DNA of 23,497 nt from a virus: positions 1 through 23,497 of the IMG/VR virus record IMGVR_UViG_3300029266_000838, one strand, 5' to 3'. Below the pieces are notes generated by a model. The model was given only the letters and a program-made list of their open reading frames with translations. It had not been told where the DNA came from and made no database searches. This document shows positions 706 to 14,160 of the stretch, piece by piece (positions within the stretch are counted from its first letter, which is position 1; every line of letters starts with the position of its first letter). The position numbers and the translations under genes are program-made.

Positions 706-721
706 TATTAACTAGCTAATA
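706..721. repeat. 16-bp palindrome, copy 1 (one mismatch)
   Basis: TATTAACTAGCTAATA, one base off the family consensus TATTAAC-NN-GTTAATA. It begins one base after the stop codon of the SSB-like gene on the minus strand. Confidence 0.7.
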
Positions 722-722
722 G

Positions 723-1088
723 TTAAAATGGCAAATCATCGTAAGAGTTCTCATTCTTAACGCTTGATTCAACATTTACAGTATCAACTACCTCTTGAGT
801 TGCTTTCTCTTTGTCGCTTTTGTAAGTGTCCATTTCTAAAGCACAGTATAGATACTCTGTATTTTGCCCAGTCTTTGGATTTACATTCTTAGATACTCTA
901 TGCCACATAGCTATGCTTAAATCAGCACCTTTCTCTCTTCTTGTATCTGACTTGATAGCTTCAACCATTTCTTTTAGCAACTCAGAACTAATAGTTATAG
1001 TACTTTTATAATCAGGATGTGTTTGCTTTTGCTTGTAGCCATTCTTAAACACATTCCCAGTTACCTTAGCTTTGTTTTTATAATCCAT
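723..1088 (-). CDS. Putative single-stranded DNA-binding protein
   Basis: A 121-residue protein that ends in SYDDLPF. An acidic tip ending D-D-L-P-F is the hallmark C-terminus of bacterial and phage SSB proteins, where it docks partner proteins. The middle (residues 30-85) could form a small beta barrel, but no confident OB-fold motif can be read by eye. Residues 90-115 are polar and probably flexible, as in SSB linkers. Its ATG overlaps the stop codon of the upstream annealing-protein gene (TAATG), so the two are translationally coupled. Annealing protein plus SSB is a common phage recombination pairing. Identification rests on the C-terminal tip and context, so moderate confidence. Confidence 0.65.
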   Translation of the reverse strand: MDYKNKAKVTGNVFKNGYKQKQTHPDYKSTITISSELLKEMVEAIKSDTRREKGADLSIAMWHRVSKNVNPKTGQNTEYLYCALEMDTYKSDKEKATQEVVDTVNVESSVKNENSYDDLPF

Positions 1089-1780
1089 TATGATATTTCT
1101 CCTTTTTTAGTTTTAAATAATTCTACAATCTTCACAAAAATATCCTTGTGTCTACTTTCGATTATGTCGATTGATGGTTTGTTTTGAATAAAGATACTAT
1201 TCATTTGTTCTATATCTTTACACATTTTAAGAGGTACTTGTATACCATCTAAAAATAGGTTCGCCCAATTCTCGTCATGTTCATCTTTGACTTTAGGCTC
1301 TGACTCTTCTTTTTGTTCAGAAATATCTTCTTTAGTTTTAGTTTGTTTATCAGGAATAGGCAAGTCAGTTCCGGCATAAATATTTATGCCTAATCCGTAC
1401 ATTCCTAAAGTTTTAACAAGACTTCTCATCTTAGCTTTATTAACTTCACTTGCATTTGGATTAATAACTGCATTGTTTTTGAAGTCCATTACAGGCAACC
1501 ACATCTCTCTTGCTAGGCTACCTATGGTCACTCTACATCTAACCTCTGCTGTTCCATCCGGTAAAACTACATAAGGAACTCCAGTCTCTTGATTTTCATA
1601 AAAAGTATATTGAGCATCAGGAAAATAATCCATCATAGTTGACCATGCATAACTCCAAGACAAATAACTCAAATTCATTTTCTTTTCTACCTTGTCACTT
1701 ACATCAATCTTACTTAATGTTTTCCATACCAGTCCATAACTTATTTGTTCCATAGCTTGTTCTTTATTCTTATTCTCCAT
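1088..1780 (-). CDS. Single-strand annealing protein, Sak3/DUF1071-like
   Basis: A 230-residue protein. Residues about 38-145 contain LSYLSWSYAWSTMMDYFPDA, then a beta-rich stretch with YVVLPDGTAEVRC and WLPVMDFKNN, and NKAKMRSLVKTLGMYGLGI. This order (L-YL-W--A----YPDA, a central strand region, then a helix with KMR-LVK-LAMYGLGL) is typical of the DUF1071/Sak3 family of phage single-strand annealing proteins. These anneal complementary ssDNA in phage recombination. The C-terminal 85 residues are charged (EDISEQKEESEPKVKDEHDE) and less conserved in such proteins. The gene starts inside the end of the 80-aa gene (overlap 11 bases) and ends on the start of the SSB-like gene. A RecB-like nuclease lies just upstream, giving an exonuclease-annealase set. 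Confidence 0.8.
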   Translation of the reverse strand: MENKNKEQAMEQISYGLVWKTLSKIDVSDKVEKKMNLSYLSWSYAWSTMMDYFPDAQYTFYENQETGVPYVVLPDGTAEVRCRVTIGSLAREMWLPVMDFKNNAVINPNASEVNKAKMRSLVKTLGMYGLGINIYAGTDLPIPDKQTKTKEDISEQKEESEPKVKDEHDENWANLFLDGIQVPLKMCKDIEQMNSIFIQNKPSIDIIESRHKDIFVKIVELFKTKKGEIS

Positions 1781-2012
1781 CTTGCATACTCCTTGTTGCT
1801 TGTATTAATAATTTTGTATCTGTAGATACGAATTCGTCAAAGGTCATTTTTTGTTGCGTTATGATACGCCTAGAATAATCTTGTATAAGAATATGCCTGT
1901 CATCTTCAAACGCTACCTTGATATGTGGTATGCCTTCGCTAGATAAGACTTGCATAAATCCTATTATCTTTCTCAAAACCTCTTCATTTTTCATTGTTAA
2001 TTTATTTCCCAC
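1770..2012 (-). CDS. Small phage protein of unknown function (80 aa)
   Basis: The reading frame is open further upstream, but the start is placed at GTG 2012 because AAAAAAGGAG sits five bases before it. An ATG at 1994 (MKNEEVLRKIIGFM) is the alternative. Upstream codons overlap the end of the PD-(D/E)XK nuclease gene and a 16-bp palindrome, which argues against the longest form. The protein (EEVLRKIIGFMQVLSSEGIP, then IKVAFEDDRHILIQDYSRRI) reads as helix followed by strands. No family is recognised. Its 3' end overlaps the annealing-protein start by 11 bases, so it belongs to the recombination operon. Confidence 0.6.
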   Translation of the reverse strand: MGNKLTMKNEEVLRKIIGFMQVLSSEGIPHIKVAFEDDRHILIQDYSRRIITQQKMTFDEFVSTDTKLLIQATRSMQDGE

Positions 2013-2030
2013 TCTTTCTCCTTTTTTGTT

Positions 2031-2046
2031 TATTAACTTGTTAATA
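2031..2046. repeat. 16-bp palindrome, copy 2 (perfect)
   Basis: TATTAACTTGTTAATA, a perfect 7+2+7 palindrome. It lies between the stop of the PD-(D/E)XK nuclease gene (2062) and the ribosome binding site of the 80-aa gene. Confidence 0.8.
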
Positions 2047-2061
2047 TTTAAACCACTCGAA

Positions 2062-2970
2062 TTATTCAACATGGTTCGTTTTGCTCCACTCTTGATATTG
2101 GTTACACCATTCATTCACCTTGCAATAGTTTCCAGTACATCTAATAGGCTCTCCTTTTCTTTCGTCTATCACATACTCTTTACTATCTTTGGTAGTCTTG
2201 CTTTCTTTCAAAAACTTTTCAGCTTCTTTTTTGTTATCAAATACTCTTAATGCCCTGACATTAGATTCTTTTCTAACAGCGTACTTGTCCTCTCTCTGCC
2301 ATCTTTCTTCATCAGTACATTCAGACATAGACTTATTACTTATAAAGCCATACACAGTCTCCTGATGTAATCTAACCCTATCCTCCATGTATTTCTCTTG
2401 CTCTTTAAAAGACCATAGCTTTATAGGTACTACTAATATTTGTTGTTGAGGATATTTGAAATCTCTTTTTGCATTGTTTCTATTCCAATCTCGCAAAAAA
2501 GTTACAATCTTTAAGTCTTTAATTTTCTTTTTCTTTTCCTTAGCAACTAAAAAGGCATAGCAATTTAATTGTCTTTCCCAATCCAACTTAGGATTCTTGA
2601 CACTCCAAACACTAGTGAATTTATAATCCAACACGCTAATACTTCCATCACTTTCTAATTTTTGAATATCAATAGCACCGGAAATTGTCCAGTTGCCAAC
2701 TTCAGTAAACAATCTCTCTTCAACTAAGTGATCATCATCTGCACCCTTCTCAGTTATATGATGGATAGCACTACCAAGATTTGCCCAAAAAGTATCGACA
2801 ACATCCTCTGAAATATTATTTTCATTTGCCATCCTTAATACTGATACTTGAGGACTATCTATTAATTGCGTAATAGACCTATCTGATTTACCTCTTGAAT
2901 AATCTCTACTCTTAGCAAGGTTTACTAAAGTCTGAGGTAGATTATGTTTGTTGGTTATTCTACTCGCCAT
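2062..2970 (-). CDS. PD-(D/E)XK exonuclease, RecB/Cas4-like
   Basis: A 302-residue nuclease. Motifs in order: GSAIHHITE at 66-74 (the G---H motif of RecB-type nucleases), EE at 84-85, GAID at 98-101 supplying the catalytic aspartate, LDYK at 114-117 (the D/E-X-K half), and Q134-LNCYA, the conserved Q----Y helix. Cysteines at 218, 278, 283 and 289 (SEC, RCTGNYC, WC) form a C-terminal cluster that could bind an iron-sulfur centre or zinc, as in Cas4/AddB relatives; that is inference. The role is probably 5' or 3' resection that feeds the annealing protein downstream. The ATG at 2970 overlaps the end of the 86-aa gene by 16 bases. Confidence 0.85.
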   Translation of the reverse strand: MASRITNKHNLPQTLVNLAKSRDYSRGKSDRSITQLIDSPQVSVLRMANENNISEDVVDTFWANLGSAIHHITEKGADDDHLVEERLFTEVGNWTISGAIDIQKLESDGSISVLDYKFTSVWSVKNPKLDWERQLNCYAFLVAKEKKKKIKDLKIVTFLRDWNRNNAKRDFKYPQQQILVVPIKLWSFKEQEKYMEDRVRLHQETVYGFISNKSMSECTDEERWQREDKYAVRKESNVRALRVFDNKKEAEKFLKESKTTKDSKEYVIDERKGEPIRCTGNYCKVNEWCNQYQEWSKTNHVE

Positions 2971-3215
2971 ATTCTAATCCCCCCATCGACTTCTCTTGTA
3001 ATTATAGAAAAATTATCTTTCCTTTTATGTTTGATAACAGACTTTGCATAGCCAATCTGATTCCTAAACTTCATAGCGTTTAAACCTTCCGGTATAGGCA
3101 CTACAAAAGATTCATTGACTTCAAGGGTTTGTAAGCACTTAGTAATGCTATTAGGTTTTCTTCTAACTTTTCTATTGACAGGTGGTATTGGTATATTCTT
3201 TTCAATCTTAAACAT
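2955..3215 (-). CDS. Small conserved phage-type protein (86 aa)
   Basis: First gene of the leftward operon. AAAAAGGAG lies five bases before the ATG. The protein has IEKNIPIPP near the N-terminus, a central VNESFVVPIPEGLNAMKF strand-turn segment, then FSIITREV and a C-terminal GGIRIWRVE. The combination L-V-ESF-VP ... F--R-V-GG-R-WRV is one I associate with a widespread family of small uncharacterised phage proteins near recombination genes, but I cannot name a function. Possibly a DNA-binding accessory protein. It overlaps the nuclease gene by 16 bases, implying coupled expression. Confidence 0.7.
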   Translation of the reverse strand: MFKIEKNIPIPPVNRKVRRKPNSITKCLQTLEVNESFVVPIPEGLNAMKFRNQIGYAKSVIKHKRKDNFSIITREVDGGIRIWRVE

Positions 3216-3245
3216 TTTTACTCCTTTTTAATCTTTACCCTTGTC

Positions 3246-3273
3246 ATTATATGTATTTTGATATTAAATACAA
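3246..3273 (-). promoter_or_regulatory. Sigma70-like promoter for the leftward recombination operon
   Basis: On the minus strand TTGTAT (3273-3268) and TATAAT (3251-3246) are separated by 16 bases. This is a good -35/-10 pair 30-60 bases before the ATG at 3215. The divergent gap of about 90 bases is otherwise AT-only. No equally good promoter was seen for the rightward gene. Confidence 0.55.
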
Positions 3274-3305
3274 ATACTAAATTAAAAATTAATTATATAA
3301 ATATT

Positions 3306-3575
3306 ATGAATAAAGAATTATATCTTTCAGTTATATATCAAGCGATAAGAGATGCTGTATCGAATGATGATAAGAAAGTTTATAAGGCTTATGATTGGTT
3401 TGGCTCAAAAGACTTTGATAAGTTATGTGAACTATCTGAATTAAATTCTAAGTCATTGAGACAATCTTTAGTTAATTTAAGAAGTAGTGATAACCCAAAG
3501 ACTACTGCCGATAATATGATTTCATCTATTAGGGCTTTAGTTTGGCAAAAGGAAAGTGTTGGAAAAGAGACCTAG
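3306..3575 (+). CDS. Small phage protein of unknown function (89 aa)
   Basis: The frame is open from 3258, but the sequence before 3306 encodes a low-complexity N/K/I stretch that looks untranslated, so the ATG at 3306 is preferred. No clear ribosome binding site precedes it. The protein has MNKELYLSVIYQAIRDAVSN, then KVYKAYDWFGSKDFDKLCEL and SLRQSLVNLRSS. An Y--AI-DA ... A--W--S-DF--LCEL-----K--R pattern occurs in many small phage proteins encoded near replication genes, with no known function. It is the first gene of the rightward early block, about 100 bases before the primase-helicase. Confidence 0.6.
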   Translation: MNKELYLSVIYQAIRDAVSNDDKKVYKAYDWFGSKDFDKLCELSELNSKSLRQSLVNLRSSDNPKTTADNMISSIRALVWQKESVGKET

Positions 3576-3587
3576 TATATAACTAGA

Positions 3588-3644
3588 TAGTTTAATACTA
3601 GATATGTTTTAAATAATAGATATAAGTATAGTTTAATACTAGAT
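3588..3644. repeat. Two exact copies of TAGTTTAATACTAGAT
   Basis: The 16-base sequence occurs at 3588-3603 and 3629-3644, 41 bases apart, in the gap before the primase-helicase gene. The core TAGTTTAATACTAG is the reverse complement of CTAGTATTAAACTA, which is found twice before the large terminase gene. Likely protein-binding sites. Confidence 0.7.
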
Positions 3645-3674
3645 TATATGAATACTAAAGATAAGGAGTAAAAA

Positions 3675-5426
3675 ATGCAAGAGGTAGTTTCAATAATTAA
3701 TTCTCAATACATAGAGGATTTTGCAAACAAGAGGATAGAATGTCCATCTTGTTCTCATGGTAGAAAGAAGAAAAATCAACGAACTTTATCTCTTACAAGA
3801 GATGGCGATAAGGTTTTATATCAATGTTGGCATTGTCAATTAAGTGGAGTAGTAGACATGAACAAAAAGAATAATGTGGTGGTAGAAAAGAAAGTAGAAA
3901 AAATAATCCCAATGAAAATACAGCCGTTAACCACGGCTAGAAAAGATAAACATGAAAACAAAATGCTTTCAGACAGGGGTATATCAGATGCTACTGCCGA
4001 AAAATATGGTGTCTTGTTTGACAGGAGAGGGTTCAATGGGGTTGGGGTTCAAGATGCTATAGGATTTCCATATTACAATGACAAGAATGTTTATGCGATT
4101 AAATGGAGAACAATTGAGGGAAAAGGTTTTACTCAAGAGGGGTCAGCTAGAACGCTGTTTGGGTTAGATAGATTAACTATTGACGATTTAATAGTTATTT
4201 GTGAGGGAGAATTTGATGCTCTTGCACTTTTTGAAAGTGGGGTTGAATGTGCTATGTCAGTTCCCAATGGTGCTGTTATGAAAGTTTCCAACAATAAGAT
4301 TTCTCCACAAGAGGATAAAAAGTTTGCTTATATTTGGAACGCCAATGAGCAATTAGATAAGGTAGATAAAGTAGTTCTATGCTGTGATAAAGATTCTTCA
4401 GGTGAAGCTCTTACAGAGGAACTTGCTAGGCGTATAGGTAAAAATAAAGTTTGGTTAGCAACACTACCTGATGATTGTAAAGATGCGAATGAAACACTTC
4501 TGAAGCATGGCAAACAAATACTCAAAGAGTGCATAGAGAATAGTGAGCCATATCCTTTATCCGGTTTATACAAAAGCGACCATTATGAAAATAGTGTTAT
4601 TGATTTATATGACAAAGGCTTTATGACAGGAGCTTCAACAGGCTATTCAAATGTAGATGAGCTTTTTAAAATTGCTGGTGGTCAGTTATCAGTTGTTACA
4701 GGCATACCATCTTCAGGAAAGTCTGAGTTCATTGACATGATTATGATGAACTTAGCTAAAAAAGAGGATTGGAAATTTGCTGTATGTAGTTTTGAGAATC
4801 CACCGGATATACATATTGCTAAACTATCTGAAAAATTTATTGATAAACCATTCTTTAGTGGTGCGACTGCAAGAATGAATGAGGATGAGAGAGATAATTC
4901 TCTTAAATTTATTGAGGAACATTTCATGTTTATTGATTATACGAATGGTGAGTCAAGCACAATAGATTCTGTGCTAGAAAAAGCAATTGGGGCTGTTAGA
5001 CAGATAGGAGCAAGAGGTCTTGTCATAGACCCTTACAACTATCTTGACATGGATAAAAATTCTTTATCTGAGACAGATGCTATATCAAGTATGCTAACCA
5101 AGATAAGTCAATTTGCAAAAGCTCATGATATCCATGTTTGGTTCATTGCACATCCCACTAAATTATATCCGGATATGAAAGGAAAAATTCCAGTACCAAC
5201 AGGATATTCAATATCAGGTAGTGCAAGTTGGTTCGCTAAGGCAGACCTAGGAATTACAGTTCATAGAAGTGAGGGTACTGATGTAGAAATACATTGTTGG
5301 AAATGTAGATTCAAATGGATAGGTACGCAAGGTGAAACAATGCTAGAATATTATCCACCTACCGGTGTTTACTCTGAAAAAAGCAATGAGGTGAATTATG
5401 TTGAGGAATTTGATTGGGAATTTTAA
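3675..5426 (+). CDS. Primase-helicase, T7 gp4/Twinkle-like
   Basis: A 583-residue replication protein with three domains visible. (1) Zinc finger: CPSC at 23-26 and CWHC at 51-54. (2) TOPRIM primase core: EGEFDAL at 177-183 with the catalytic glutamate and CDKDSSG at 237-243 as the D-x-D element. (3) RecA-type hexameric helicase: TGYSNVDEL entry, Walker A GIPSSGKS at 343-350, an SFENP motif, Walker B GLVIDPYN at 448-455, and IAHP at 491-494 matching the sensor motif of DnaB-family helicases. The order and length match T7 gp4, which synthesises RNA primers and unwinds DNA at the phage fork. AAGGAG lies eight bases before the ATG. No DNA polymerase is in this window. The 3' end overlaps the next gene by 29 bases. 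Confidence 0.93.
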   Translation: MQEVVSIINSQYIEDFANKRIECPSCSHGRKKKNQRTLSLTRDGDKVLYQCWHCQLSGVVDMNKKNNVVVEKKVEKIIPMKIQPLTTARKDKHENKMLSDRGISDATAEKYGVLFDRRGFNGVGVQDAIGFPYYNDKNVYAIKWRTIEGKGFTQEGSARTLFGLDRLTIDDLIVICEGEFDALALFESGVECAMSVPNGAVMKVSNNKISPQEDKKFAYIWNANEQLDKVDKVVLCCDKDSSGEALTEELARRIGKNKVWLATLPDDCKDANETLLKHGKQILKECIENSEPYPLSGLYKSDHYENSVIDLYDKGFMTGASTGYSNVDELFKIAGGQLSVVTGIPSSGKSEFIDMIMMNLAKKEDWKFAVCSFENPPDIHIAKLSEKFIDKPFFSGATARMNEDERDNSLKFIEEHFMFIDYTNGESSTIDSVLEKAIGAVRQIGARGLVIDPYNYLDMDKNSLSETDAISSMLTKISQFAKAHDIHVWFIAHPTKLYPDMKGKIPVPTGYSISGSASWFAKADLGITVHRSEGTDVEIHCWKCRFKWIGTQGETMLEYYPPTGVYSEKSNEVNYVEEFDWEF

Positions 5427-5946
5427 TCCTACAGATTTAGGAACTAAAGAATTACACTCGCATTTTGAATGTGAGTTAGAGGATTTGGGGACAGGAATAT
5501 ATAGAACTAGAATTAAGACTCAGATTTATATAGATAAGTTATTTATTAACTCGTTAATAGATGAGTCTCAACATCATGCCGGTGAATTTATTTATAAATT
5601 AGCATCAAAATCCGGTATGTTCCCATCATCAGTTAACATGAACGCTACGTTCCAAGATGGTGGTATGTCAAATACTGCTTCCCATAAATCCTTAAAATCT
5701 GTTGTACTTACAAGGATCACAAAAATTTTAAGAAACTCCCGTACACCAGCATCCCAAAACACAGCTATTGGTCTACCTGATTTTCTTATAAATGTTGTTT
5801 GTTTTGATAAACCTATATCAAGCGAACAAGAATTGCACCTCTTAAAACTGGGACTAAATGCAATATCTGAACGCTTGTATAGAAAAAATTTAGATAACTC
5901 TAAAGAATGTTGTATTAATGCTGTTGAATCTGTTGTTCAAGCATAA
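5398..5946 (+). CDS. Phage protein of unknown function (182 aa)
   Basis: The gene starts inside the end of the primase-helicase gene; GAGGTGAATT just before ATG 5398 supplies a ribosome binding site, so the two are coupled. The protein has mixed strand/helix character, with FECELEDLGTGIYRTRIKTQ, an INSLIDESQHHAGEFIYKLA helix, KSVVLTRITKILRN, and a C-terminal helix LHLLKLGLNAISERLYRKN. No family is recognised. Position suggests a replication accessory role, which is inference. Its last 32 bases overlap, in convergent orientation, the small ribbon-helix-helix gene on the minus strand. Confidence 0.65.
   Translation: MLRNLIGNFNPTDLGTKELHSHFECELEDLGTGIYRTRIKTQIYIDKLFINSLIDESQHHAGEFIYKLASKSGMFPSSVNMNATFQDGGMSNTASHKSLKSVVLTRITKILRNSRTPASQNTAIGLPDFLINVVCFDKPISSEQELHLLKLGLNAISERLYRKNLDNSKECCINAVESVVQA
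5544..5559. repeat. 16-bp palindrome inside a gene, copy 3 (perfect)
   Basis: TATTAACTCGTTAATA matches the family consensus exactly, but lies within the 182-aa coding sequence (codons for FINSLI). It is the only intragenic copy and may be a real site or chance. Confidence 0.55.
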
Positions 5947-6091
5947 ATACTATTTGAGAAGATAGACTCCTCCTATTCTCATCAGCTATCTCTTGTATAG
6001 ACATCCTTAAACTATCAGGCATACGCGTTGTAACATAGCCGGTTTTTGGTTTAGGTTGTTTTGTAAATTTTATTGTTGTTTTCATTTTCAT
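5915..6091 (-). CDS. Arc-like ribbon-helix-helix DNA-binding protein (58 aa)
   Basis: A short gene with AAGGAG six bases before ATG 6091. A second ATG at 6085 is possible. After a basic N-terminus (KFTKQPKPKTG) come YVTTRMPDSLRMSIQEIADE and NRRSLSSQIVFMLEQQIQQH. This is the beta strand, first helix, NRS-type turn and second helix of Arc/MetJ-family proteins, with R23-MP following the strand. Such proteins bind operators as dimers of dimers; Arc of phage P22 is the best known. Length (58) is close to Arc (53). The gene follows the 73-aa gene directly; the upstream stop codon abuts the GGAG. Its 3' end overlaps the converging 182-aa gene by 32 bases. Confidence 0.85.
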   Translation of the reverse strand: MKMKTTIKFTKQPKPKTGYVTTRMPDSLRMSIQEIADENRRSLSSQIVFMLEQQIQQH

Positions 6092-6100
6092 TATTACTCC

Positions 6101-6322
6101 TTAATGTATGCTTGAAATTTCGTTAAATAATTTTGTTTGTTCTTCAAAGGTTCTGTGAAAAGCTGTAAAGCTACCATTAGATTCTTCGTGTAGTATTTCA
6201 AAGTAAACCTCCTCTTCATCTTCATCTACAACTAAAGAAAATAAATCCCCACACTCTCCACAAACAGTCTGAGTATCTTCGTCAAAAGATATTATTCTGT
6301 GTAGACAACTTACATTTTTCAT
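6101..6322 (-). CDS. Small zinc-ribbon-like acidic protein (73 aa)
   Basis: Near the N-terminus C6-L-H8 and C21-GE-C24 (CLHR ... VCGECGDLF) are spaced like a small zinc ribbon. The rest is very acidic (VVDEDEEEVYFEILHEE) and ends in FHRTFEEQTKLFNEIS. The gene begins one base after the stop of the 125-aa gene and ends just before the ribosome binding site of the Arc-like gene, so it is in the middle of a tight operon. Function unknown; small phage zinc-ribbon proteins often bind nucleic acid or host polymerase, but nothing here proves that. Confidence 0.65.
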   Translation of the reverse strand: MKNVSCLHRIISFDEDTQTVCGECGDLFSLVVDEDEEEVYFEILHEESNGSFTAFHRTFEEQTKLFNEISSIH

Positions 6323-6323
6323 A

Positions 6324-7378: not shown

Positions 7379-7392
7379 ATTTTCTCCTTTTT

Positions 7393-7466: not shown

Positions 7467-7772
7467 TTAAACATTAGACCAATCATGTTTTACAAACTCT
7501 TCAGTTATCCAAGCATCCTCTGAACCAAATGAAGTTGTTTCATGCACCAAATGGCAAACTCTAACTTTTCTATTTCTTTCCGGATGTAAGATATTCAAAT
7601 TAACTTGATTCATATCAACTAAAAGATTAAAAACTTTTAGTAACTGTGTATCAGCATCAGATATATCTGTCGTGTCTCCGGTACTTCTATCTACTTTCGT
7701 ATAAATTTCATTACATATTTTTACTATTTCTATTGTTGTTTTATTGAGCAACTCCTCGTTTCTTATTGTCAT
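7467..7772 (-). CDS. Phage protein of unknown function (101 aa)
   Basis: ATATGGAG precedes the ATG by five bases. The first 60 residues look alpha-helical (NEELLNKTTIEIVKICNEIY, then DADTQLLKVFNLLVDMNQVN). They are followed by RKVRVCHLVHETTSFGSEDA and WITEEFVKHDW. No family recognised. A perfect copy of the 16-bp palindrome lies between its ribosome binding site and the preceding stop codon. Confidence 0.6.
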   Translation of the reverse strand: MTIRNEELLNKTTIEIVKICNEIYTKVDRSTGDTTDISDADTQLLKVFNLLVDMNQVNLNILHPERNRKVRVCHLVHETTSFGSEDAWITEEFVKHDWSNV

Positions 7773-7789
7773 AATGACTCCATATTATT

Positions 7790-7805
7790 TATTAACAGGT
7801 TAATA
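7790..7805. repeat. 16-bp palindrome, copy 4 (perfect)
   Basis: TATTAACAGGTTAATA, starting one base after the stop codon of the 67-aa gene and ending before the ribosome binding site of the 101-aa gene (minus strand). Confidence 0.85.
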
Positions 7806-7806
7806 T

Positions 7807-8010
7807 TTATTCTCCAAGTACCACAAATCCATTAGCTTTAACTTTAGCTAAAGTCGTTTCATTGATTCCTCGTAAATACCAAACACCATACCTATCTTGA
7901 TAGGATTTTTCCCTTACAGGGTCTTCTACACCACCAATGTTCATTCCATAAAAATCTTGTAGATAACAAGATAGTTTATAAACAGCATATTCATAGTTTT
8001 TTTTCTTCAT
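7807..8010 (-). CDS. Small phage protein of unknown function (67 aa)
   Basis: The sequence runs KKKNYEYAVYKLSCYLQDFY, then MNIGGVEDP, and YQDRYGVWYLRGINETTLAK with a final VKANGFVVLGE. The ending reads like a short strand-helix-strand unit. No family is recognised. Its ATG overlaps the stop codon of the 47-aa gene (ATGA), a classic coupling overlap. Confidence 0.6.
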   Translation of the reverse strand: MKKKNYEYAVYKLSCYLQDFYGMNIGGVEDPVREKSYQDRYGVWYLRGINETTLAKVKANGFVVLGE

Positions 8011-8150: not shown

Positions 8151-8322
8151 CTTTTACTCCTTTTTTAACTACATAAAGATAAGAACTATTGCTTCTTTTA
8201 GTCATGTAACCAATATGATCTATATCATCAATTACACATTCTCCAATTTTATTTGAGTTATCTAATTTTTTATTCTCTAAATAACAAGGCAACCCACCAA
8301 ATTCAATTACTGGTTTACTCAT
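8143..8322 (-). CDS. Small phage protein of unknown function (59 aa)
   Basis: The ATG at 8322 lies inside the end of the 87-aa gene and AAGGAG precedes it by six bases. The protein runs MSKPVIEFGGLPCYLENKKL, then GECVIDDIDHIGYMTKRSNS and a SYLYVVKKGVKDV ending. The sequence reads as beta strands separated by turns. No family is recognised. The stop codon overlaps the start of the 47-aa gene, so it is one link in a chain of overlapping small genes. Confidence 0.65.
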   Translation of the reverse strand: MSKPVIEFGGLPCYLENKKLDNSNKIGECVIDDIDHIGYMTKRSNSSYLYVVKKGVKDV

Positions 8323-8578
8323 TAGCTTTTACTCCTTCTTTAAATTCAATCATTTCTCCTAACCATGCACCAAGAGGTCTGATAATATTAAAATCATCTG
8401 TTGGTTCACAATCTTCAATGTTTACTTCCCATCTTTTCCAAACATTACTAAGTTCATTTAGTAATACATCTATAATCACATATCTGTATTTACAATGTAT
8501 TACTTTTGCCGGATAGATTTTGTTGTTATCAGTCCAGTCTTTGTAATAAATTTTTTGTCCTCTTTCTAATTTAGCCAT
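8315..8578 (-). CDS. Small beta-rich phage protein (87 aa)
   Basis: The ATG at 8578 is preferred over the longer frame because it overlaps the stop codon of the preceding gene (TAATG) and has AAAGGTG upstream. MAKLERGQKIYYKDWTDNNK, IYPAKVIHCKYRYVIIDVLL and VWKRWEVNIEDCEPTDDF look like a compact barrel of short strands, similar in rhythm to small Tudor/SH3-type modules. That is inference, not a recognised domain. The tail is LGAWLGEMIEFKEGVKANE. Confidence 0.6.
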   Translation of the reverse strand: MAKLERGQKIYYKDWTDNNKIYPAKVIHCKYRYVIIDVLLNELSNVWKRWEVNIEDCEPTDDFNIIRPLGAWLGEMIEFKEGVKANE

Positions 8579-8757
8579 TAGCTTTTCACCTTTATATATT
8601 GTCTTGTTAAAGAATGTTTGAACCAATCAGTATTTGTTTTCTTATCTGAAAACATATACATAATAGGCTCGTCTTTACTCAACTGTGATTGTGTCCAAAA
8701 GTTCTTAAAAATATTTTTAATATCTTTTAAATCTTTTGTATAAATATTATTTTCCAT
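8578..8757 (-). CDS. Small phage protein of unknown function (59 aa)
   Basis: The start is placed at ATG 8757, with GGAG five bases upstream. The longer frame would run back into the hammerhead ribozyme leader and is rejected. Residues MENNIYTKDLKDIKNIFKNF and WTQSQLSKDEPIMYMFSDKK form a helix and a probable strand, followed by a basic end. Function unknown. After ribozyme cleavage this would be the first gene on a new 5' end, with a leader of 43 bases. Confidence 0.6.
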   Translation of the reverse strand: MENNIYTKDLKDIKNIFKNFWTQSQLSKDEPIMYMFSDKKTNTDWFKHSLTRQYIKVKS

Positions 8758-8789
8758 ACTTACTCCATTTTTATTATTTACTATCAATT

Positions 8790-8860
8790 GATAGCACCAA
8801 TAACACCCCAATCATTGGGATGTTTTCATAGCATCTCAGCTAATCATCAGTTGGTTTATC
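8790..8860 (-). ncRNA. Type I hammerhead ribozyme C
   Basis: Read on the minus strand. Stem I is ACCAA (8855-8851) with UUGGU (8800-8796), extended past an internal loop by GAUA (8860-8857) with UAUC (8793-8790). The core CUGAUGA is at 8850-8844. Stem II is UUAGC/GCUAU around loop UGAGAU, with a U-U at its base. GAA is at 8827-8825. Stem III is ten pairs, AACAUCCCAA/UUGGGGUGUU with a UGA loop and one U-G. The cleavage triplet is UUA, so the cut falls between 8801 and 8800. All invariant hammerhead residues are present. The stop codon of the 75-aa gene (8858-8856) lies within stem I, and the ribosome binding site of the 59-aa gene follows. Confidence 0.94.
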
Positions 8861-9083
8861 TCAATCCAATTTTTCTTTCCAAGTGCATAGTAATCACTTG
8901 TCTCATATTTTTAATAACATAATCGAATTGTTTAGGGTTAGCTTTTGCTATCGCAAATAGAGAATCCATATCATGAGGAATTACATTCTCAATCATGGAT
9001 TTTTTACTTACATACGATTTAAGTTCTCGCATCAAATCGTCTTCTAAGTCTTCTAATGTGTCTAAGTATTTTGATTTTTTCAT
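8856..9083 (-). CDS. Small helical phage protein (75 aa), ribozyme-flanked
   Basis: A charged, apparently all-helical protein: LDTLEDLEDDLMRELKSYVS, then SLFAIAKANPKQFDYVIKNM and RQVITMHLERKIGLR. GGAGG precedes the ATG and lies in the loop of a short GACC/GGTC hairpin that might limit initiation. The gene is flanked by two hammerhead ribozymes (B upstream, C at its stop codon), so it would be cut out as its own monocistronic RNA. No family is recognised. Confidence 0.65.
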   Translation of the reverse strand: MKKSKYLDTLEDLEDDLMRELKSYVSKKSMIENVIPHDMDSLFAIAKANPKQFDYVIKNMRQVITMHLERKIGLR

Positions 9084-9109
9084 AATTTCGACCCTCCAAG
9101 GTCATATTA

Positions 9110-9180
9110 AATTACCAATAACAGACAGCACTCGCTATCTGTTTTCATGTCATCTCAGACAATCATCAGTTGGTTTAATT
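9110..9180 (-). ncRNA. Type I hammerhead ribozyme B
   Basis: Minus strand. Stem I is ACCAA (9174-9170) with UUGGU (9118-9114), extended by AAUU/AAUU. The core CUGAUGA is at 9169-9163. Stem II is UUGUC/GACAU with loop UGAGAU. GAA is at 9046+100 offset, i.e. 9146-9144. Stem III is ten pairs, AACAGAUAGC/GCUGUCUGUU, with tetraloop GAGU and one U-G pair. The triplet is UUA and the cut falls between 9119 and 9118. Stem II differs from copies A and C at paired positions (UGUC/GACA against UAGC/GCUA), a compensatory change. It follows the VWA gene and precedes the 75-aa gene. Confidence 0.94.
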
Positions 9181-9195
9181 ATTAACAGGTTAATA
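9180..9195. repeat. 16-bp palindrome, copy 5 (perfect)
   Basis: TATTAACAGGTTAATA, identical to copy 4. It lies between the VWA-gene stop codon and hammerhead B. Confidence 0.85.
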
Positions 9196-9200
9196 GTCAA

Positions 9201-9216
9201 TGTTGCCTAAGCAACA
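9201..9216 (-). other. Hairpin with the VWA stop codon in its loop
   Basis: TGTTGC-CTAA-GCAACA: six perfect pairs, with the TAG stop codon (minus strand) in the four-base loop. It may protect the 3' end of the VWA message. Confidence 0.5.
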
Positions 9217-10313
9217 TCAACTATATCTCCAAAGGTGAAGTAACTTGAAGTCTCGGTGGTAGCCCAAACTACAGGATATTCAGGCTCAGTACATGGCGTA
9301 CAATAACCATCAGTAAGATAGATTAAGAATGAGATATCATTGTCTAACTCTTTATCTATATATTTGATTACAGGTTCATAATCAGTGCAACCACCTCTCA
9401 TGTAATGTAATTCAATCTCTTCACCTCTACCAAAGGTATCAACTCTTCTAACAGCATCATCACAATAGATAACTGTAAGCTCTTCGAAGTCAGCCACTTC
9501 TTTAATGTCATTTGCACAACTTATGTACATGGCTTGATCTTCTTTATTTGTAGAACCACTGATATCAATAGCAAGAACGCCTTTAGCACTCGGCTTTTTT
9601 TCACAACTAGGCAAGTAAAGGTCTTGATGTATAAACCTTCTATTTACATTATTGAAGTTGTAATCGCTAGATGGGACTTTGTCCAATACTAAGTTCATTA
9701 GGATTTCCTCCCAAGATACTGAATTGTCTTTTACGACATCCATCATGCCTTTAGTAGCATCTCCCATACCTTTACTTGAGAAACCCTTAGCACTTTGCTC
9801 TGCTTGAAGCACTTGTATTGTTACCTCTATGTCTGCATCTTTTACTTGAGATTCTGTGAGTTTCTCTCCATCATCTCCAACAGCATCAATAACCTCTCCA
9901 ACCAATTGGGCGTTATCGTGTTGCTTATCTTTGAATACTTGATCATAGACAGTTTCAGTTTTTTGATTGACATATTTTCTATCAAACAATCCACCATCAG
10001 GCAAAACAAACTTATGCTCAAATAGTACTGCATTGATAACGTAATCACCGGCAACATTCCAATATTGAGGACATCTATTTTTTCTTCTCAGGTGGTGTTT
10101 GAAAACGATATGTAAAACTTCGTGAGCAATAACACCAACTCTTTCTTGATGGGTAATACTCAATACAAAGTCCTTGTTATAGAACAAGTGAGTACCATCA
10201 ACAGCCATAGTATCAATATCATCTCTTTCAACCATCACCATTCCTAAAGCAATCTTTCCAAAAAAGGGATGTTTGATAATAAGTTCAGTCCTAGCTTTCG
10301 TCATTTCTTGCAT
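9207..10313 (-). CDS. Putative metallopeptidase/VWA-domain protein (DUF2201-like)
   Basis: A 368-residue protein. The N-terminal part has HPFFGKIALGM and, at residues 64-68, HEVLH followed by FKHH, a zinc-metallopeptidase HExxH motif, then YWNVAGDYVINA. The C-terminal part from about 245 has AIDISGS (DxSGS, a metal-adhesion VWA motif at 250-254), IYCDDAV, RGGCTDYEPVI and IYLTDGYC. This two-part layout matches the metallopeptidase plus VWA-like (DUF2201) proteins usually encoded beside MoxR ATPases. The ATG at 10313 follows the upstream stop after two bases; a GTG at 10328 is an alternative. Likely partner of the MoxR ATPase 1 kb upstream. Substrate unknown. Confidence 0.85.
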   Translation of the reverse strand: MQEMTKARTELIIKHPFFGKIALGMVMVERDDIDTMAVDGTHLFYNKDFVLSITHQERVGVIAHEVLHIVFKHHLRRKNRCPQYWNVAGDYVINAVLFEHKFVLPDGGLFDRKYVNQKTETVYDQVFKDKQHDNAQLVGEVIDAVGDDGEKLTESQVKDADIEVTIQVLQAEQSAKGFSSKGMGDATKGMMDVVKDNSVSWEEILMNLVLDKVPSSDYNFNNVNRRFIHQDLYLPSCEKKPSAKGVLAIDISGSTNKEDQAMYISCANDIKEVADFEELTVIYCDDAVRRVDTFGRGEEIELHYMRGGCTDYEPVIKYIDKELDNDISFLIYLTDGYCTPCTEPEYPVVWATTETSSYFTFGDIVDVA

Positions 10314-10315
10314 TA

Positions 10316-11191
10316 TCAATCTAACCACCCTTCAAGACCTTCGATAATCTCATCAGATTTATCAGCTAATTCTTTAGCCTTATCTTTATCATCTCTCAAT
10401 GATTGAGCATCGATGTTTTTGCCAGTGAAAATATCCATCAGACCTTGATGAGCCTTATGAATTTTTGAATCACCACCAATATTTAATGCCGGTATAACTT
10501 CGCAAAGTTCCATAACTTTATCAAGCGTTGAATCTCTAAATGTTTCACCTGCTTTTATTTTTTCTGAAAAGTGTCCAAGTACGCCATTGATTTTATCAGT
10601 AACATCTTTGGTTATCTTTTCAACTCTATCCTCTTCTTGCTTCTTAGCATTTTGTTTAAGTTCGTCAATCTCATCTTTAGATAAATTAATTCTAATATCA
10701 TCAGTTGATGGAACGACATTCTTAATAACTTCGCAAGAAAAATACTCTCCAATTTCAGTCTCATGAGGGAAATCATTTGAATCAAAGTTAGCACCAAATT
10801 CATGCTCGGCACTTTTGATAATCTCCGGATATTCAGAAACAAACTGTTTTACCAATTTCTCTCTATCATCTCTATATTCTGAAAACCTTTTCTCAAACCT
10901 ATCTTTTGCATCGATAGGTAATAAGTAGTTTCCATTGTTATCCCATGCATGACAAAAACCTCTATATCCAGCACCTGAATAAATGCAGTCAGTTCTTATC
11001 TGTCCATCAATTTTTTTAATCTCTTTTAATGTTTTGGACTTAGTAAGTTTCTTAGAAACTGAATACAAACTTGCATCAGTATTAGAATCATTACCTATTT
11101 TTTCTGATAAGGATTTATCAGTTTTAGTCCCACCCCATTTCTTGAGTTCAACCTTGATGAGCATGGCTTTTTCGTTTAAGGCTACTGCCAT
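10316..11191 (-). CDS. DUF3150-like protein of the MoxR/VWA module
   Basis: A 291-residue protein with an N-terminal segment MLIKVELKKWGGTKTDKSLS, a middle region with GFCHAWDNNGNYLLPIDAKD and FVSEYPEIIKSAEHEFGANF followed by DSNDFP, and a highly charged helical C-terminal half (LKQNAKKQEEDRVEKITKDV). The pattern of a W at about 19, an R/H-W-D-G-LLP element and N-DFP resembles the DUF3150-type proteins found between MoxR ATPases and VWA proteins in phages and plasmids. The assignment is by pattern and neighbourhood. Probably an adaptor or substrate-binding part of the complex (inference). ATAGGAG precedes the ATG; hammerhead A lies in its leader. Confidence 0.65.
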   Translation of the reverse strand: MAVALNEKAMLIKVELKKWGGTKTDKSLSEKIGNDSNTDASLYSVSKKLTKSKTLKEIKKIDGQIRTDCIYSGAGYRGFCHAWDNNGNYLLPIDAKDRFEKRFSEYRDDREKLVKQFVSEYPEIIKSAEHEFGANFDSNDFPHETEIGEYFSCEVIKNVVPSTDDIRINLSKDEIDELKQNAKKQEEDRVEKITKDVTDKINGVLGHFSEKIKAGETFRDSTLDKVMELCEVIPALNIGGDSKIHKAHQGLMDIFTGKNIDAQSLRDDKDKAKELADKSDEIIEGLEGWLD

Positions 11192-11209
11192 AAAAATACT
11201 CCTATATTT

Positions 11210-11231
11210 AAGTATTAATTAGTTAATACTT
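11210..11231. repeat. 16-bp palindrome, copy 6, within a 22-bp inverted repeat
   Basis: AAGTATTAA-TTAG-TTAATACTT has perfect 9-base arms, extending the family motif TATTAATTAGTTAATA (one mismatch to consensus). It lies in the leader of the DUF3150-like gene, directly after hammerhead A. Confidence 0.75.
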
Positions 11232-11338
11232 GTTACCAATATGAATCTAACCATTAAGGAAAAACAAAGTTATAAACAACTTTATTTTTTACAGATTCAT
11301 TTCATAGCATTTCAGCTAATCATCAGTTGGTTTAAAGC
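11228..11338 (-). ncRNA. Type I hammerhead ribozyme A with long stem III
   Basis: Minus strand. Stem I is ACCAA (11331-11327) with UUGGU (11239-11235), extended by GCUU/AAGU across an internal loop. The core CUGAUGA is at 11326-11320. Stem II is UUAGC/GCUAU with loop UGAAAU. GAA is at 11303-11301. Stem III is AUGAAUCU/AGAUUCAU (eight pairs), whose end carries a second hairpin of 12 pairs (11289-11278 with 11271-11260). The triplet is AUA and the cut falls between 11240 and 11239. The MoxR stop codon (11334-11332) lies in the stem I internal loop, so cleavage separates MoxR from the DUF3150-VWA pair. Confidence 0.93.
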
Positions 11339-12321
11339 GTAATGTCTTGATGTTTGATATCAAAATCAATAAACGCTTTAGTCTTTTTCAAATCAGGATT
11401 TGATTCAATTGCATCAGTCATACACAAAATCGCAAACTCATCAGGTAATGTGTCTAAGTATTTCATGAACTTATTGATGTTTTTCTTATCCATTTTCCTA
11501 GCGATTATGCTAGTAATTGCATACAAGATAGCTGGGTCAGACTCAGTATCAAGGCTCTCAGGGTCATTTAAGATTTTATCCAATGATGGTAAACCTCTTA
11601 CAGTTCTCATAAACCCTATCAACTCAGCACTAACTCCTTGTCCAATAGTTCCGGAAAGTAGTTCATGCTCAATATCAGCACTAGGCGATTGAGCCATAAT
11701 TCTTGAAGCATACTCCCAAGTTCTAGGCGTGGCGTTAATTCCCATTTTTGCATTTTTATCAAAAACAAATAGATTCTCAGGTCTATATCTCATATAGGCT
11801 ATGACTTCCGGAATAATTTTTCCACTTGATTTTGCCCAGTCTATCCAATCGTCTACGCAAGGCTCAAATTCAAGATTAATAAATCTACCTGCCAATGCTG
11901 TATTCATTCTATTTGCTCCGGCTTTATCTGACATCCTATTTCCAGCACCAATTATCACAGTTGATTCAGGAAGTGTATATTCGCCAAGTTGTCTATCTTT
12001 AACTAACTGAAACAAAGCGTTTTGTACGCTAGGGCTACCATGAGGTAACTCATCCAAGAACAATATTGTTTTTGGGTCTTTTTCAGTTGGTAAAAATACT
12101 GGTGGATTCCACACAGTAACTCCTTCTTTTACGCTAGGTACTCCTCTTAAATCTACAGGGTCTAGCAATGATACTCTCACATCTCTAATCTCAAAACCAA
12201 GAGACTTTCCAACTTTGTGGATAATCTCCGATTTGCCGACCCCAACTCCACCATAAACAAATGATGGCTGGTTAATAGAAATGAGAGTGGAAAGTGATTT
12301 TTCTAATTGTTTCGCTTTCAT
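11332..12321 (-). CDS. MoxR-family AAA+ ATPase
   Basis: A 329-residue protein with all AAA+ elements: Walker A GGVGVGKS (24-31), Walker B ILFLDEL (86-92), sensor 1 GAGNR (125-129) and an arginine-finger GRF (145-147). The sequence between them (RVSLLDPVDLRGVPSV ... WNPPVFLPT) is typical of MoxR/CobS-type ATPases, with a helical lid afterwards (ATPRTWEYASRIM). MoxR ATPases act as chaperone-like remodelers together with VWA proteins, and one lies downstream. GGAG precedes the ATG by five bases. The transcript is bounded by a probable type III hammerhead upstream and hammerhead A at the stop codon, so this message may be isolated from its partners. Confidence 0.9.
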   Translation of the reverse strand: MKAKQLEKSLSTLISINQPSFVYGGVGVGKSEIIHKVGKSLGFEIRDVRVSLLDPVDLRGVPSVKEGVTVWNPPVFLPTEKDPKTILFLDELPHGSPSVQNALFQLVKDRQLGEYTLPESTVIIGAGNRMSDKAGANRMNTALAGRFINLEFEPCVDDWIDWAKSSGKIIPEVIAYMRYRPENLFVFDKNAKMGINATPRTWEYASRIMAQSPSADIEHELLSGTIGQGVSAELIGFMRTVRGLPSLDKILNDPESLDTESDPAILYAITSIIARKMDKKNINKFMKYLDTLPDEFAILCMTDAIESNPDLKKTKAFIDFDIKHQDITL

Positions 12322-12355
12322 ATTTACTCCATTTTTGCGATTAATAAAACTGAAA

Positions 12356-12410
12356 TGACTATTTCGCAGTAACTCATTCAGGCATGGGTACTAATCCCAT
12401 GCGATAGTCA
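12356..12410 (-). ncRNA. Probable type III hammerhead ribozyme E, altered core
   Basis: Minus strand. UGACUAU (12410-12404) pairs perfectly with AUAGUCA (12362-12356) as stem III. C12403 is the residue before the cut, in triplet AUC. Stem I is GCAUGGG/CCCAUGC with loop AUUAGUA. Then come CUGA-AU-GA (12381-12374), a very short stem II (G-C and U-G around UACU), and GAA (12365-12363). Order and junctions match a stem-III-open hammerhead. However, the core has one extra base compared with CUGANGA, and stem II is only two pairs. It could be an unusual active form or a decaying copy. It lies in the leader of the MoxR gene. Confidence 0.62.
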
Positions 12411-12418
12411 AAATTAAA

Positions 12419-12449
12419 TGGCTAGTTTTAAGGTATGTGGTACTAGCCA
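12419..12449 (-). other. 8-bp hairpin upstream of ribozyme E
   Basis: TGGCTAGT (12419-12426) and ACTAGCCA (12442-12449) form eight perfect pairs around a 15-base loop. It lies between the 42-aa gene and ribozyme E and may protect the 3' end of the upstream message. No U-run follows on the minus strand. Confidence 0.6.
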
Positions 12450-12465
12450 ACCACGAAAAATTTAC

Positions 12466-12594
12466 CTATACACCCTTAGCATTTTCAAATGCTATCTGAA
12501 ATGCTGTTTTCTTTTTTACTTTTGGCTTGTAAATTTTCATAGATATTAATTTATCTTGTTGATTCACAACCACTTTTCTTTTTGATTTTTTCAT
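12466..12594 (-). CDS. Small basic protein (42 aa)
   Basis: A short gene with GGAG five bases before ATG 12594. It follows the 69-aa gene after 31 bases that include a copy of the 16-bp palindrome. The protein is strongly basic: MKKSKRKVVVNQQDKLISMK, then IYKPKVKKKTAFQIAFENAK. Such composition suggests nucleic-acid or RNA polymerase binding, but no family is recognised. Its existence is supported by spacing and ribosome binding site rather than similarity. Confidence 0.6.
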   Translation of the reverse strand: MKKSKRKVVVNQQDKLISMKIYKPKVKKKTAFQIAFENAKGV

Positions 12595-12608
12595 ATGCTC
12601 TCCATAAG

Positions 12609-12624
12609 TATTAATCAGTTAATA
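12609..12624. repeat. 16-bp palindrome, copy 7 (one mismatch)
   Basis: TATTAATCAGTTAATA, one base after the stop codon of the 69-aa gene and before the ribosome binding site of the 42-aa gene (minus strand). Confidence 0.8.
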
Positions 12625-12625
12625 T

Positions 12626-12835
12626 TTAGTATGTTTTTGTTGCTCCCATAACTAGGTGTGCAACATCAATTAGTTTTTCAATAGTTGACTCTCTCATATG
12701 CTTTTGATTTTTCTCATTAACTCTATGATAAGCACCCACGATGTAGGATGCTGTAAACAAATCAACTACCACGCCTTCAACTTTCATTGCTGTTTGGGTC
12801 TCTGATATTTCAAATAATTTTCCTAAAGCACTCAT
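12626..12835 (-). CDS. Small phage protein of unknown function (69 aa)
   Basis: The start at ATG 12835 is chosen because it overlaps the stop of the membrane-protein gene (TAATG); a longer frame would run back through that gene. MSALGKLFEISETQTAMKVE, VVVDLFTASYIVGAYHRVNE, then STIEKLIDVAHLVMGATKTY look like a small alpha/beta or all-helical protein. No family is recognised. Confidence 0.6.
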   Translation of the reverse strand: MSALGKLFEISETQTAMKVEGVVVDLFTASYIVGAYHRVNEKNQKHMRESTIEKLIDVAHLVMGATKTY

Positions 12836-12993
12836 TACATCCACCCCATTTTTAAAGCAATATATGAAACAATGCACAATGCCAAAGCAAAGGGCTTTAA
12901 TACATACCAGCTAAACCATTCCATCCCATTCATATTACTGAAGTGCTTTTTGATCGAAACCCATTCTTTTATTAATCTATTCGCCATTGTCAT
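12835..12993 (-). CDS. Small membrane protein, one transmembrane helix (52 aa)
   Basis: A short gene whose ATG (12993, alternative 12987) lies inside the end of the 49-aa gene and whose stop overlaps the next start. The N-terminal half is basic and soluble (MTMANRLIKEWVSIKKHFSN). Residues about 29-50 (WYVLKPFALALCIVSYIALK) are a clear transmembrane helix. A single helix with a basic cytoplasmic-like N-terminus could be a holin-like, superinfection-exclusion or anchor protein; nothing in the sequence decides. It sits among small middle genes, not beside lysis genes. Confidence 0.7.
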   Translation of the reverse strand: MTMANRLIKEWVSIKKHFSNMNGMEWFSWYVLKPFALALCIVSYIALKMGWM

Positions 12994-13126
12994 AACCCCC
13001 TAAATGTTGCATAGGGTCTATGTTAGAAATATCACTTTCTATTGAGTTGATATACTCTCCATCGCCTATACATCTATTACCTAAAACATTGTCTAATTCT
13101 GCAACTAATCTATTTAGTTCATTCAT
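12977..13126 (-). CDS. Small phage protein of unknown function (49 aa)
   Basis: GGAG is six bases before ATG 13126. The protein is acidic: MNELNRLVAELDNVLGNRCI, GDGEYINSIESDISNIDPMQ, then HLGGYDNGE. It overlaps the membrane-protein gene by 17 bases. It is the first gene after hammerhead D, so cleavage would give its message a leader of 33 bases. Function unknown. Confidence 0.6.
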   Translation of the reverse strand: MNELNRLVAELDNVLGNRCIGDGEYINSIESDISNIDPMQHLGGYDNGE

Positions 13127-13154
13127 AATTTCTCCATTTTTAATTATATTTATT

Positions 13155-13219
13155 ACCTATATATGGAACTCCGGAGAGTCCCAAATTTCGCCACCTTTCA
13201 GTGTTGCTCGTCAGTAGGT
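13155..13219 (-). ncRNA. Type I hammerhead ribozyme D
   Basis: Minus strand. Stem I is ACCUA (13219-13215) with UAGGU (13159-13155). The core CUGACGA is at 13214-13208. Stem II is GC, an AA bulge, then CACU/GGUG closed by a GAAA tetraloop, ending GC. GAA is at 13189-13187. Stem III is 11 positions (13186-13176 with 13171-13161), ten paired, with loop UCCG. The triplet is AUA and the cut falls between 13160 and 13159. It differs from A-C in every stem yet keeps all invariant residues. It directly follows the stop codon of the 100-aa gene and precedes the 49-aa gene. Confidence 0.92.
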
Positions 13220-13522
13220 TTATCCTTTGTAAACTGATATTTTCCATGATGCGTAAGGTTCAGCTTCATGCCCTAGTTTTTCAAGTTCTTTCAAACCAAA
13301 AATCTTTTCTGCATTTTCCCATACCATATCTCCACCATAATCATCCCATGTTTCGTTGATGATGTCGTAACAGTAGCCACCATCAAAAAGAATCTCAACA
13401 TTTCCCTCTTCACATTCTCTGATTATTAAATCCTCCCAAATCTGCTTTGCAGTCAATATGCTCTCGTCAGCATATTTATTCACAGCCTTTGTTAAATGTT
13501 CAATTACTTTGTTTATTTTCAT
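13220..13522 (-). CDS. Phage protein of unknown function (100 aa)
   Basis: First gene of the leftward middle operon. ATGGAG precedes the ATG. It opens with a helix (MKINKVIEHLTKAVNKYADE) and continues SILTAKQIWEDLIIRECEEG, then acidic and aromatic stretches (YCYDIINETWDDYGGDMVWE) and a C-terminal KLGHEAEPYASWKISVYKG. No family recognised. Its leader (UAGGUAAUAA at 13559-13550) resembles the leader left after cleavage by hammerhead D. Confidence 0.6.
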   Translation of the reverse strand: MKINKVIEHLTKAVNKYADESILTAKQIWEDLIIRECEEGNVEILFDGGYCYDIINETWDDYGGDMVWENAEKIFGLKELEKLGHEAEPYASWKISVYKG

Positions 13523-13569
13523 AATATATTTTCTCCATTAAATTAAAATTATTACCTATATTTTATCGC

Positions 13570-13992
13570 TTTGGGATTAGCTACTCTTCACACTTACAAG
13601 TTTAGTCCCTAGAGACAAGCAAGTTACACGCCGGTTTATCACCAGCATAGCCTTAGCACACATCGATATCCTTGAGTTTTGTGTCCTGTAGGGCTTAAAC
13701 TCTCCGGAAACCATCCAAACCTTTAGTCTTGCTAAGACATTCGCATATGGACAGAGACGTTCTCAATTAAGCGACACTCTCTCAACCCAAGATAAACGCA
13801 CTAAGACATGATGTCCGGATTTTTCGTGGTGAGGATTTCTTGGTTACCTCTTTCTCGTTTAAGTCCCATGTATCGATTCAGGCTCTAGGCTTGAACCCTC
13901 GAACCATGTCATTGCGACTGGCTCTCATGGGGACTATGAGCATCCCACTAGGGTGTATTTGAAAAGGGGGCAAAATCGCCGTCAATCCCAAA
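13570..13992. ncRNA. Candidate 423-nt structured non-coding RNA
   Basis: There is no open frame of note on either strand across about 630 bases. By hand count 190 of 420 bases (13561-13980) are G or C, about 45%, well above neighbouring DNA. TTTGGGATT (13570-13578) is exactly complementary to AATCCCAAA (13984-13992), closing the ends. Inside are GAGTTT/AAACTC (13674-13679, 13697-13702), GTCTT/AAGAC (13726-13738), and a three-way junction: AGTCCC-ATG (13862-13870) with CAT-GGGACT (13926-13935) encloses hairpins at 13877-13895 and 13904-13921. The 13877-13895 hairpin has eight pairs, two of them G-U only on the plus strand. Strand is therefore more likely plus, but one hairpin (13630-13646) favours minus. 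Class unknown. Confidence 0.6.
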
Positions 13993-14049
13993 TGACAAAT
14001 GCATCTTAGTTTATTACCCCACAAATGACAAGGATTAAATGATATATAT

Positions 14050-14075
14050 GTTCATCTAATGTTCGCTGTGTGAAC
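14050..14075 (+). promoter_or_regulatory. SOS (LexA) box array before the small terminase gene
   Basis: GTTC (14050-14053), seven bases, GTTC (14061-14064) is the alphaproteobacterial LexA site GTTC-N7-GTTC. The spacer ATCTAAT contains a -10-like TCTAAT. A third half-site GAAC (14072-14075) follows after another seven bases, giving three half-sites at an 11-base period. A 6-bp hairpin (14083-14097) follows. It lies about 95 bases before the TerS start. Confidence 0.75.
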
Positions 14076-14082
14076 TAGTGTT

Positions 14083-14097
14083 GCTTACGAAGTAAGC
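14083..14097 (+). other. Short hairpin after the SOS box array
   Basis: GCTTAC-GAA-GTAAGC, a perfect 6-bp stem with a three-base loop, in the leader of the late operon. Confidence 0.5.
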
Positions 14098-14144
14098 GTA
14101 TGATTGGGTTTAGGCATATATAAACATATGTAAAATAAATTAAA

Positions 14145-14160
14145 TATTAATAGGTTAATA
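14145..14160. repeat. 16-bp palindrome, copy 8 (one mismatch)
   Basis: TATTAATAGGTTAATA, ending seven bases before the TerS ATG. It occupies the usual ribosome binding site position; no other Shine-Dalgarno sequence is visible there apart from AGG within it. Confidence 0.75.

Follow-up and report, generated by a model that had tools for sequence, protein, structure and literature searches.

A palindrome that recurs throughout the genome of a tailed phage probably forms a genome-wide set of DNA operators, acting also as transcriptional roadblocks, for a dimeric regulator encoded by the phage itself; this reading derives from comparison of sequences. The palindrome set is real, conserved in place among close relatives, selected at the level of DNA, specific to one lineage and replaced by another palindrome in a sister lineage; we infer that it is recognised by a phage protein which, once bound, blocks transcription.

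The stretch of DNA analysed, the window, is a 23,497-nt fragment of the phage genome (IMGVR_UViG_3300029266_000838). No terminase relative in the phage collection exceeds about 55% identity, Pelagibacter phage HTVC027P coming nearest, and the close relatives of the phage are uncultured IMG/VR contigs of up to 58.8 kb; the family is uncultured and apparently marine, and a search for a host via terminase in GTDB genomes gave no match. Early and replication genes of the window are mostly on the minus strand, with the helicase-primase pair on the plus strand; late genes are on the plus strand, starting with the terminase small subunit at 14168, and belong to an operon of roughly 41 kb. Many records of the clade are fragments, and genes were called by a simple longest-ORF rule, which may make the stated distance to the start inexact for a few genes.

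The initial annotation listed eight copies of the 16-mer TATTAACNNGTTAATA, each with at most one mismatch, at 706, 2031, 5544, 7790, 9180, 11213, 12609 and 14145. All eight coordinates are exact and, as it also stated, four are perfect palindromes (2031, 5544, 7790 and 9180), the other four having one mismatch. Three copies lie one base past a stop codon: TATTAACTAGCTAATA at 706-721, behind the gene 723-1088 (minus strand); the perfect copy at 7790-7805, behind 7807-8010 (minus) and 17 nt before the ATG of 7467-7772 (minus); and that at 12609-12624, behind 12626-12877 (minus) and before the start of 12466-12594 (minus). The perfect copy at 2031-2046 follows the nuclease gene 2062-2970 (minus) and precedes a probable GTG start near 2013 (minus); it falls inside a mechanically called ORF, 1770-2114, the gene of which more likely starts instead at this GTG, just after AGGAGA. 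At 9180-9195 a perfect copy follows the VWA/DUF2201 gene 9207-10328 (minus) and is itself followed by a hammerhead-like RNA, and the copy at 11213-11228 lies just downstream of another such RNA, 21 nt before the ATG of 10316-11191 (minus). On the plus strand, the copy at 14145-14160 does end seven bases before the terminase-small-subunit ATG (14168), a place kept in the clade. The description of the copies as lying mostly in intercistronic gaps fails for the perfect copy at 5544-5559, which is inside the plus-strand gene 5398-5946, 117 nt past the helicase stop, in DNA whose codons are frozen in eight genomes. A ninth, degenerate copy (TATTGACGATTTAATA, two mismatches) is present at 4178-4193 within the helicase-primase gene, where relatives carry a better one, TATTAACGACTTAATA.

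The RNAs that share gaps with the 9180 and 11213 copies are among the predicted hammerhead-ribozyme-like elements found between genes on the minus strand, at 8792-8859, 9110-9177, 11231-11336 and 13152-13220, and at 16 places in relatives. They have a CUGANGA and GAAA core and fold into a three-way junction, with a stem I that covaries (ACCAA/UUGGU, ACCUA/UAGGU, AUCAA/UUGAU). Rfam misses them: the scan of the window returned no match at E up to 1, and one sub-threshold Hammerhead_3 match was seen. A variant, CUGAAYGAG...AAGAAAC, lies just past the palindrome in four relatives (G003, G004, G008 and G009). Another non-coding stretch, 13568-14060 (minus sense, about 400-490 nt), separates the early operon from the terminase small subunit and is conserved at 61% mean column identity in 8 clade genomes; its consensus fold has 66 pairs, and in 35 of them both sides vary while pairing is retained. 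This stretch has no Rfam match and its single-sequence fold is unremarkable (z = -0.75); it is a candidate large structured phage RNA. Repeats of the TTTAATACTAGAT type (family D6) occur at 3575-3660, before the helicase gene, and at 15180-15260, before the terminase large subunit gene.

Chance occurrence in AT-rich DNA does not explain the palindrome. At up to three mismatches the 16-mer has 13 matches where 4.2 are expected, and the stricter core TATTAANNNNTTAATA, matched 7 times in the window, never turned up in 100 dinucleotide-preserving shuffles, bearing out the claim that the copies exceed chance, for which a shuffled control had been proposed. We also searched de novo for all 6-bp dyads with spacers of 0-10, comparing each clade record with its shuffled sequence. 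TATTAA-N4-TTAATA was the top dyad in 10 of 11 clade records, the exception being the partial record G010, where it ties at 2 copies; the top dyad had 4 to 11 copies per record as against usually 1-3 for the best dyad after shuffling, single shuffles of G007 and G012 having reached 5 and 10. Nor, among the matches listed by an exact scan of viral contigs (at least 118 stretches), is the motif common to many viruses: the non-clade contigs listed had a single copy in the stretch covered, save for L191 with two copies 41 bp apart, and the motif is absent from the distant Arc relatives L131 and L133.

Conservation in relatives, named at the outset as a check on the proposal, was found at fixed places clade-wide. 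The motif is carried by all relatives that reach 86% terminase identity and whose records extend over these regions, with 7-10 copies (at most one mismatch) per record of 55-59 kb; the reversed control gave 0 matches. A copy ends 7-9 bp before the start of the terminase small subunit; the giant late gene (up to 2.8 kaa) has another 1-7 bp from its stop, where late and early operons converge; another occupies a gap of about 18 bp between late genes of 410 and 457 aa. Further places are within the 182-aa gene, 117 bp past the helicase stop, within helicase-primase, and before a 291-aa gene.

Two more distant relatives, G013 and G018 (72% and 69% terminase identity), lack the motif save for weak two-mismatch matches and, in G013, one single-mismatch match. 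The sister lineage to which G018 belongs (with L082, L083 and L085) is without the clade motif but has a dispersed palindrome of its own, AAAAGTACYATRGTACTTTT, also written as site AAAAGTACCATGGTACTTTT, of which 50 kb of G018 contain 11 copies when up to two mismatches are allowed. These lie 26 bp past the stop of the giant late gene and within helicase-primase; others occupy gaps that flank the MoxR and VWA genes or precede the terminase small subunit, and two late genes have a copy 12-13 bp ahead of them. The layout is alike and the sequence unlike, as would be expected if the pair of protein and site had changed while its job had not. Among ten small proteins of G018 tested as its regulator, none belonged to a DNA-binding family. 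G013 has no clear dispersed palindrome; a candidate third one, AGCATTANNTAATGCT, fell apart when inspected. In a related lineage (L049, L051) several copies of TACGTCCGTACCTA are found near poly-T runs and a ribosome-binding site, and are possibly another dispersed element.

The full unit is longer than the 16-mer, reaching 4 bp beyond it on each side: the consensus of 91 oriented sites is a symmetric 24-bp dyad, YAWnTATTAACNNGTTAATAnWTR. It starts (T/C)A(A/T)n and so can supply TAA. The earlier observation that copies often lie one base after a stop, which holds exactly at 706, 7790 and 12609, is explained by this, since the outer TAA of the dyad is often itself the stop codon. The centre of the unit can also be put to use: in copies 1-3 nt from a start codon the central bases form a Shine-Dalgarno sequence in 11 of 11 cases, with variants that include CAGG, AAGG, AAGGAG and CGGG. 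In copies farther from starts the centre is not a Shine-Dalgarno and, where there is room, a separate one usually follows. The binder would then leave the centre of the dyad free, for translation to borrow when required. Besides this start region, no further conserved sequence was found at a fixed distance from the copies.

Two results bear on the level at which the palindrome acts. In the two coding copies, both in replication genes, seven codons specify an amino acid that is invariant across eight genomes, and all seven are themselves identical; in the rest of those genes this is true of 13 of 53 codons for these amino acids (Fisher p = 2e-4, a guide only because the eight genomes are related). 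Transcripts of the 5'-UTR copies would have a mismatch at the innermost pair in 26 of 36 cases and at the flank pair in 32 of 36, and the 24-mer folds with a mean energy of only -0.8 kcal/mol. RNA pairing is not kept, and the palindrome therefore acts as DNA. Symmetric reading of DNA by a protein fits these data; an RNA hairpin and a standard promoter do not.

According to the reading we favour, a dimer or a pair of dimers of a phage-encoded regulator would occupy the 24-bp two-fold symmetric site. Near starts, occupied copies would prevent initiation or stop polymerase early in elongation; within genes and at the operon end they would halt elongating polymerase, stoperator fashion. The regulator would thereby be both repressor and elongation roadblock, placed at gene starts, between genes of one operon, where the late operon ends and in replication genes, and its action would probably shut down the early and replication operons and insulate them from the late operon. 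As 9 records, several of which are partial, yielded no tyrosine integrase, a shut-off from early to late is more likely than lysogeny. The phages may lead a temperate life by another route; with no lysogeny gene seen, it is not evident why they should need a repressor acting on the whole genome. This counts against the operator reading, as do the failure to find a DNA-binding candidate among the ten sister-lineage proteins and the lack of a clear dispersed palindrome in G013.

The sites might instead be bound by an activator and mark the starts of middle or late transcription. Many copies do precede a start codon by 7-23 nt, and upstream of them there is often a hairpin or hammerhead-like RNA at which the preceding message could end, but promoter hexamers at fixed spacing are not conserved, which disposes of a sigma-70 promoter as such, and no promoter is needed inside genes or where operons converge at the late end; we regard activation as unlikely. 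We give less credence still to a role not in gene expression but in DNA maintenance (partition, genome folding, replication control or recombination). Such a role would accommodate sites placed within genes and at the ends of operons in addition to those at starts, and some PHROG families matching the Arc-like protein discussed below have partition names; against it stand the strong bias to gene boundaries and the adaptation of the centre as a Shine-Dalgarno where it abuts a start, and no ParA-like gene was noticed, in passing rather than by systematic search. An element acting in RNA, which the initial annotation had offered for consideration, whether an mRNA hairpin that presents or hides the Shine-Dalgarno or a processing signal, could claim the central Shine-Dalgarno sequences and the hammerhead-like RNAs in some of the same gaps, but is very improbable in view of the lost pairing, the weak folding, and the copies inside genes and past gene ends.

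For the operator reading, two phage proteins present themselves as binders. One is an Arc-like, putative ribbon-helix-helix protein of 58 aa (5915-6091, minus strand), which scores 23.8 bits with Pfam Arc (PF03869; cut-off 20.4) and resembles AmrZ and Mnt by profile. Its monomer model shows two helices, with the strand not formed, and has Arc as its best Foldseek match, a weak one (E = 1.2). Residues Y19, T21 and R23, which we take to be those facing DNA if the protein binds as Arc does, are invariant, and the residues between them vary. Dimers of the Arc type recognise symmetric tandem sites about as long as the 24-bp palindrome. The other is an 84-aa winged-helix protein like the LexA DNA-binding domain (14890-15144, plus strand), encoded between the terminase genes; it scores 41.2 bits with Pfam LexA_DNA_bind (PF01726; cut-off 23.7), its predicted fold matches LexA 3k2z (Foldseek E = 4e-4), and its putative recognition helix (SSKST-HAM) is invariant. 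A Pfam scan found no second domain, the C-terminal self-cleaving peptidase domain being absent, so that, like LexA in sequence and predicted fold, the protein differs in being little more than a DNA-binding domain; the likeness of the first candidate to the Arc/Mnt repressors is its sequence match. The LexA-like gene lies behind the terminase-small-subunit operator, which would allow self-regulation.

The initial annotation had suggested an operator, for instance of the Arc-like protein. The operator part is upheld by the fixed places, the frozen codons, the lost RNA pairing and the sister palindrome. As the regulator, the Arc-like protein stays in contention, being clade-wide, absent where the motif is absent and invariant at its predicted contact positions, but the LexA-like protein tracks the motif equally: each occurs in all motif-bearing records spanning its region and in no motif-free relative. 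Co-occurrence failed to choose between them because both mark the same clade. On the sequence data we place the Arc-like protein first, as a tentative choice, and the LexA-like protein next, as a real possibility; that the binder is another protein, host proteins included, seems rather unlikely. We know of no Arc or LexA operator with the sequence of this palindrome.

Little is known of the timing of genes in uncultured marine phages, and a conserved operator grid with two named candidate binders makes the question directly testable. Two lineages with different operators at comparable places offer a natural experiment in which to follow the joint change of a regulator and its whole set of sites. 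A wider proposition, which we consider doubtful though worth stating, is that in apparently non-integrating phages the whole genome is controlled by a symmetric operator grid that doubles as stop codons, Shine-Dalgarno and coding sequence, with sister lineages using the same grid and unrelated operators: stoperator-like control without lysogeny, its specificity swapped as phages diverge.

The stoperators of Cluster A mycobacteriophages (L5 family) are dispersed in up to about 30 copies per genome and bound by the phage repressor, which also stops elongation, and their consensus varies by lineage, tracking the repressor (PMC6550527, PMC9283540). The present phage likewise has many near-identical copies genome-wide, mostly in short gaps. 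Stoperators, however, are asymmetric 13-bp sites in one orientation, in temperate phages (PMC6550527, PMC9283540), whereas here the site is a 24-bp palindrome, no tyrosine integrase was found in the 9 records (several partial), and two copies are within conserved coding sequence. The SAS and ESAS elements of Cluster K mycobacteriophages are dispersed near start codons, with the Shine-Dalgarno inside the repeat and an upstream stop codon that may overlap it; the ESAS inverted repeats vary between subclusters, and were judged by their authors to be sites of DNA-protein interaction because RNA pairing is not kept (PMC3203893). Here the centre holds a Shine-Dalgarno in all 11 copies within 3 nt of a start and not in the others. 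SAS is the asymmetric GGGATAGGAGCCC, found only at starts, and ESAS consists of 17-bp repeats with a variable spacer (PMC3203893); our palindrome differs from the former in sequence and in having copies inside genes and at gene ends, and from the latter in being a single dyad of fixed spacing. Differing in symmetry, length, copies in coding sequence and apparent lack of a tyrosine integrase, it is a member of neither group, and these are its nearest known kinds, both of them dispersed sites with a lineage-specific consensus.
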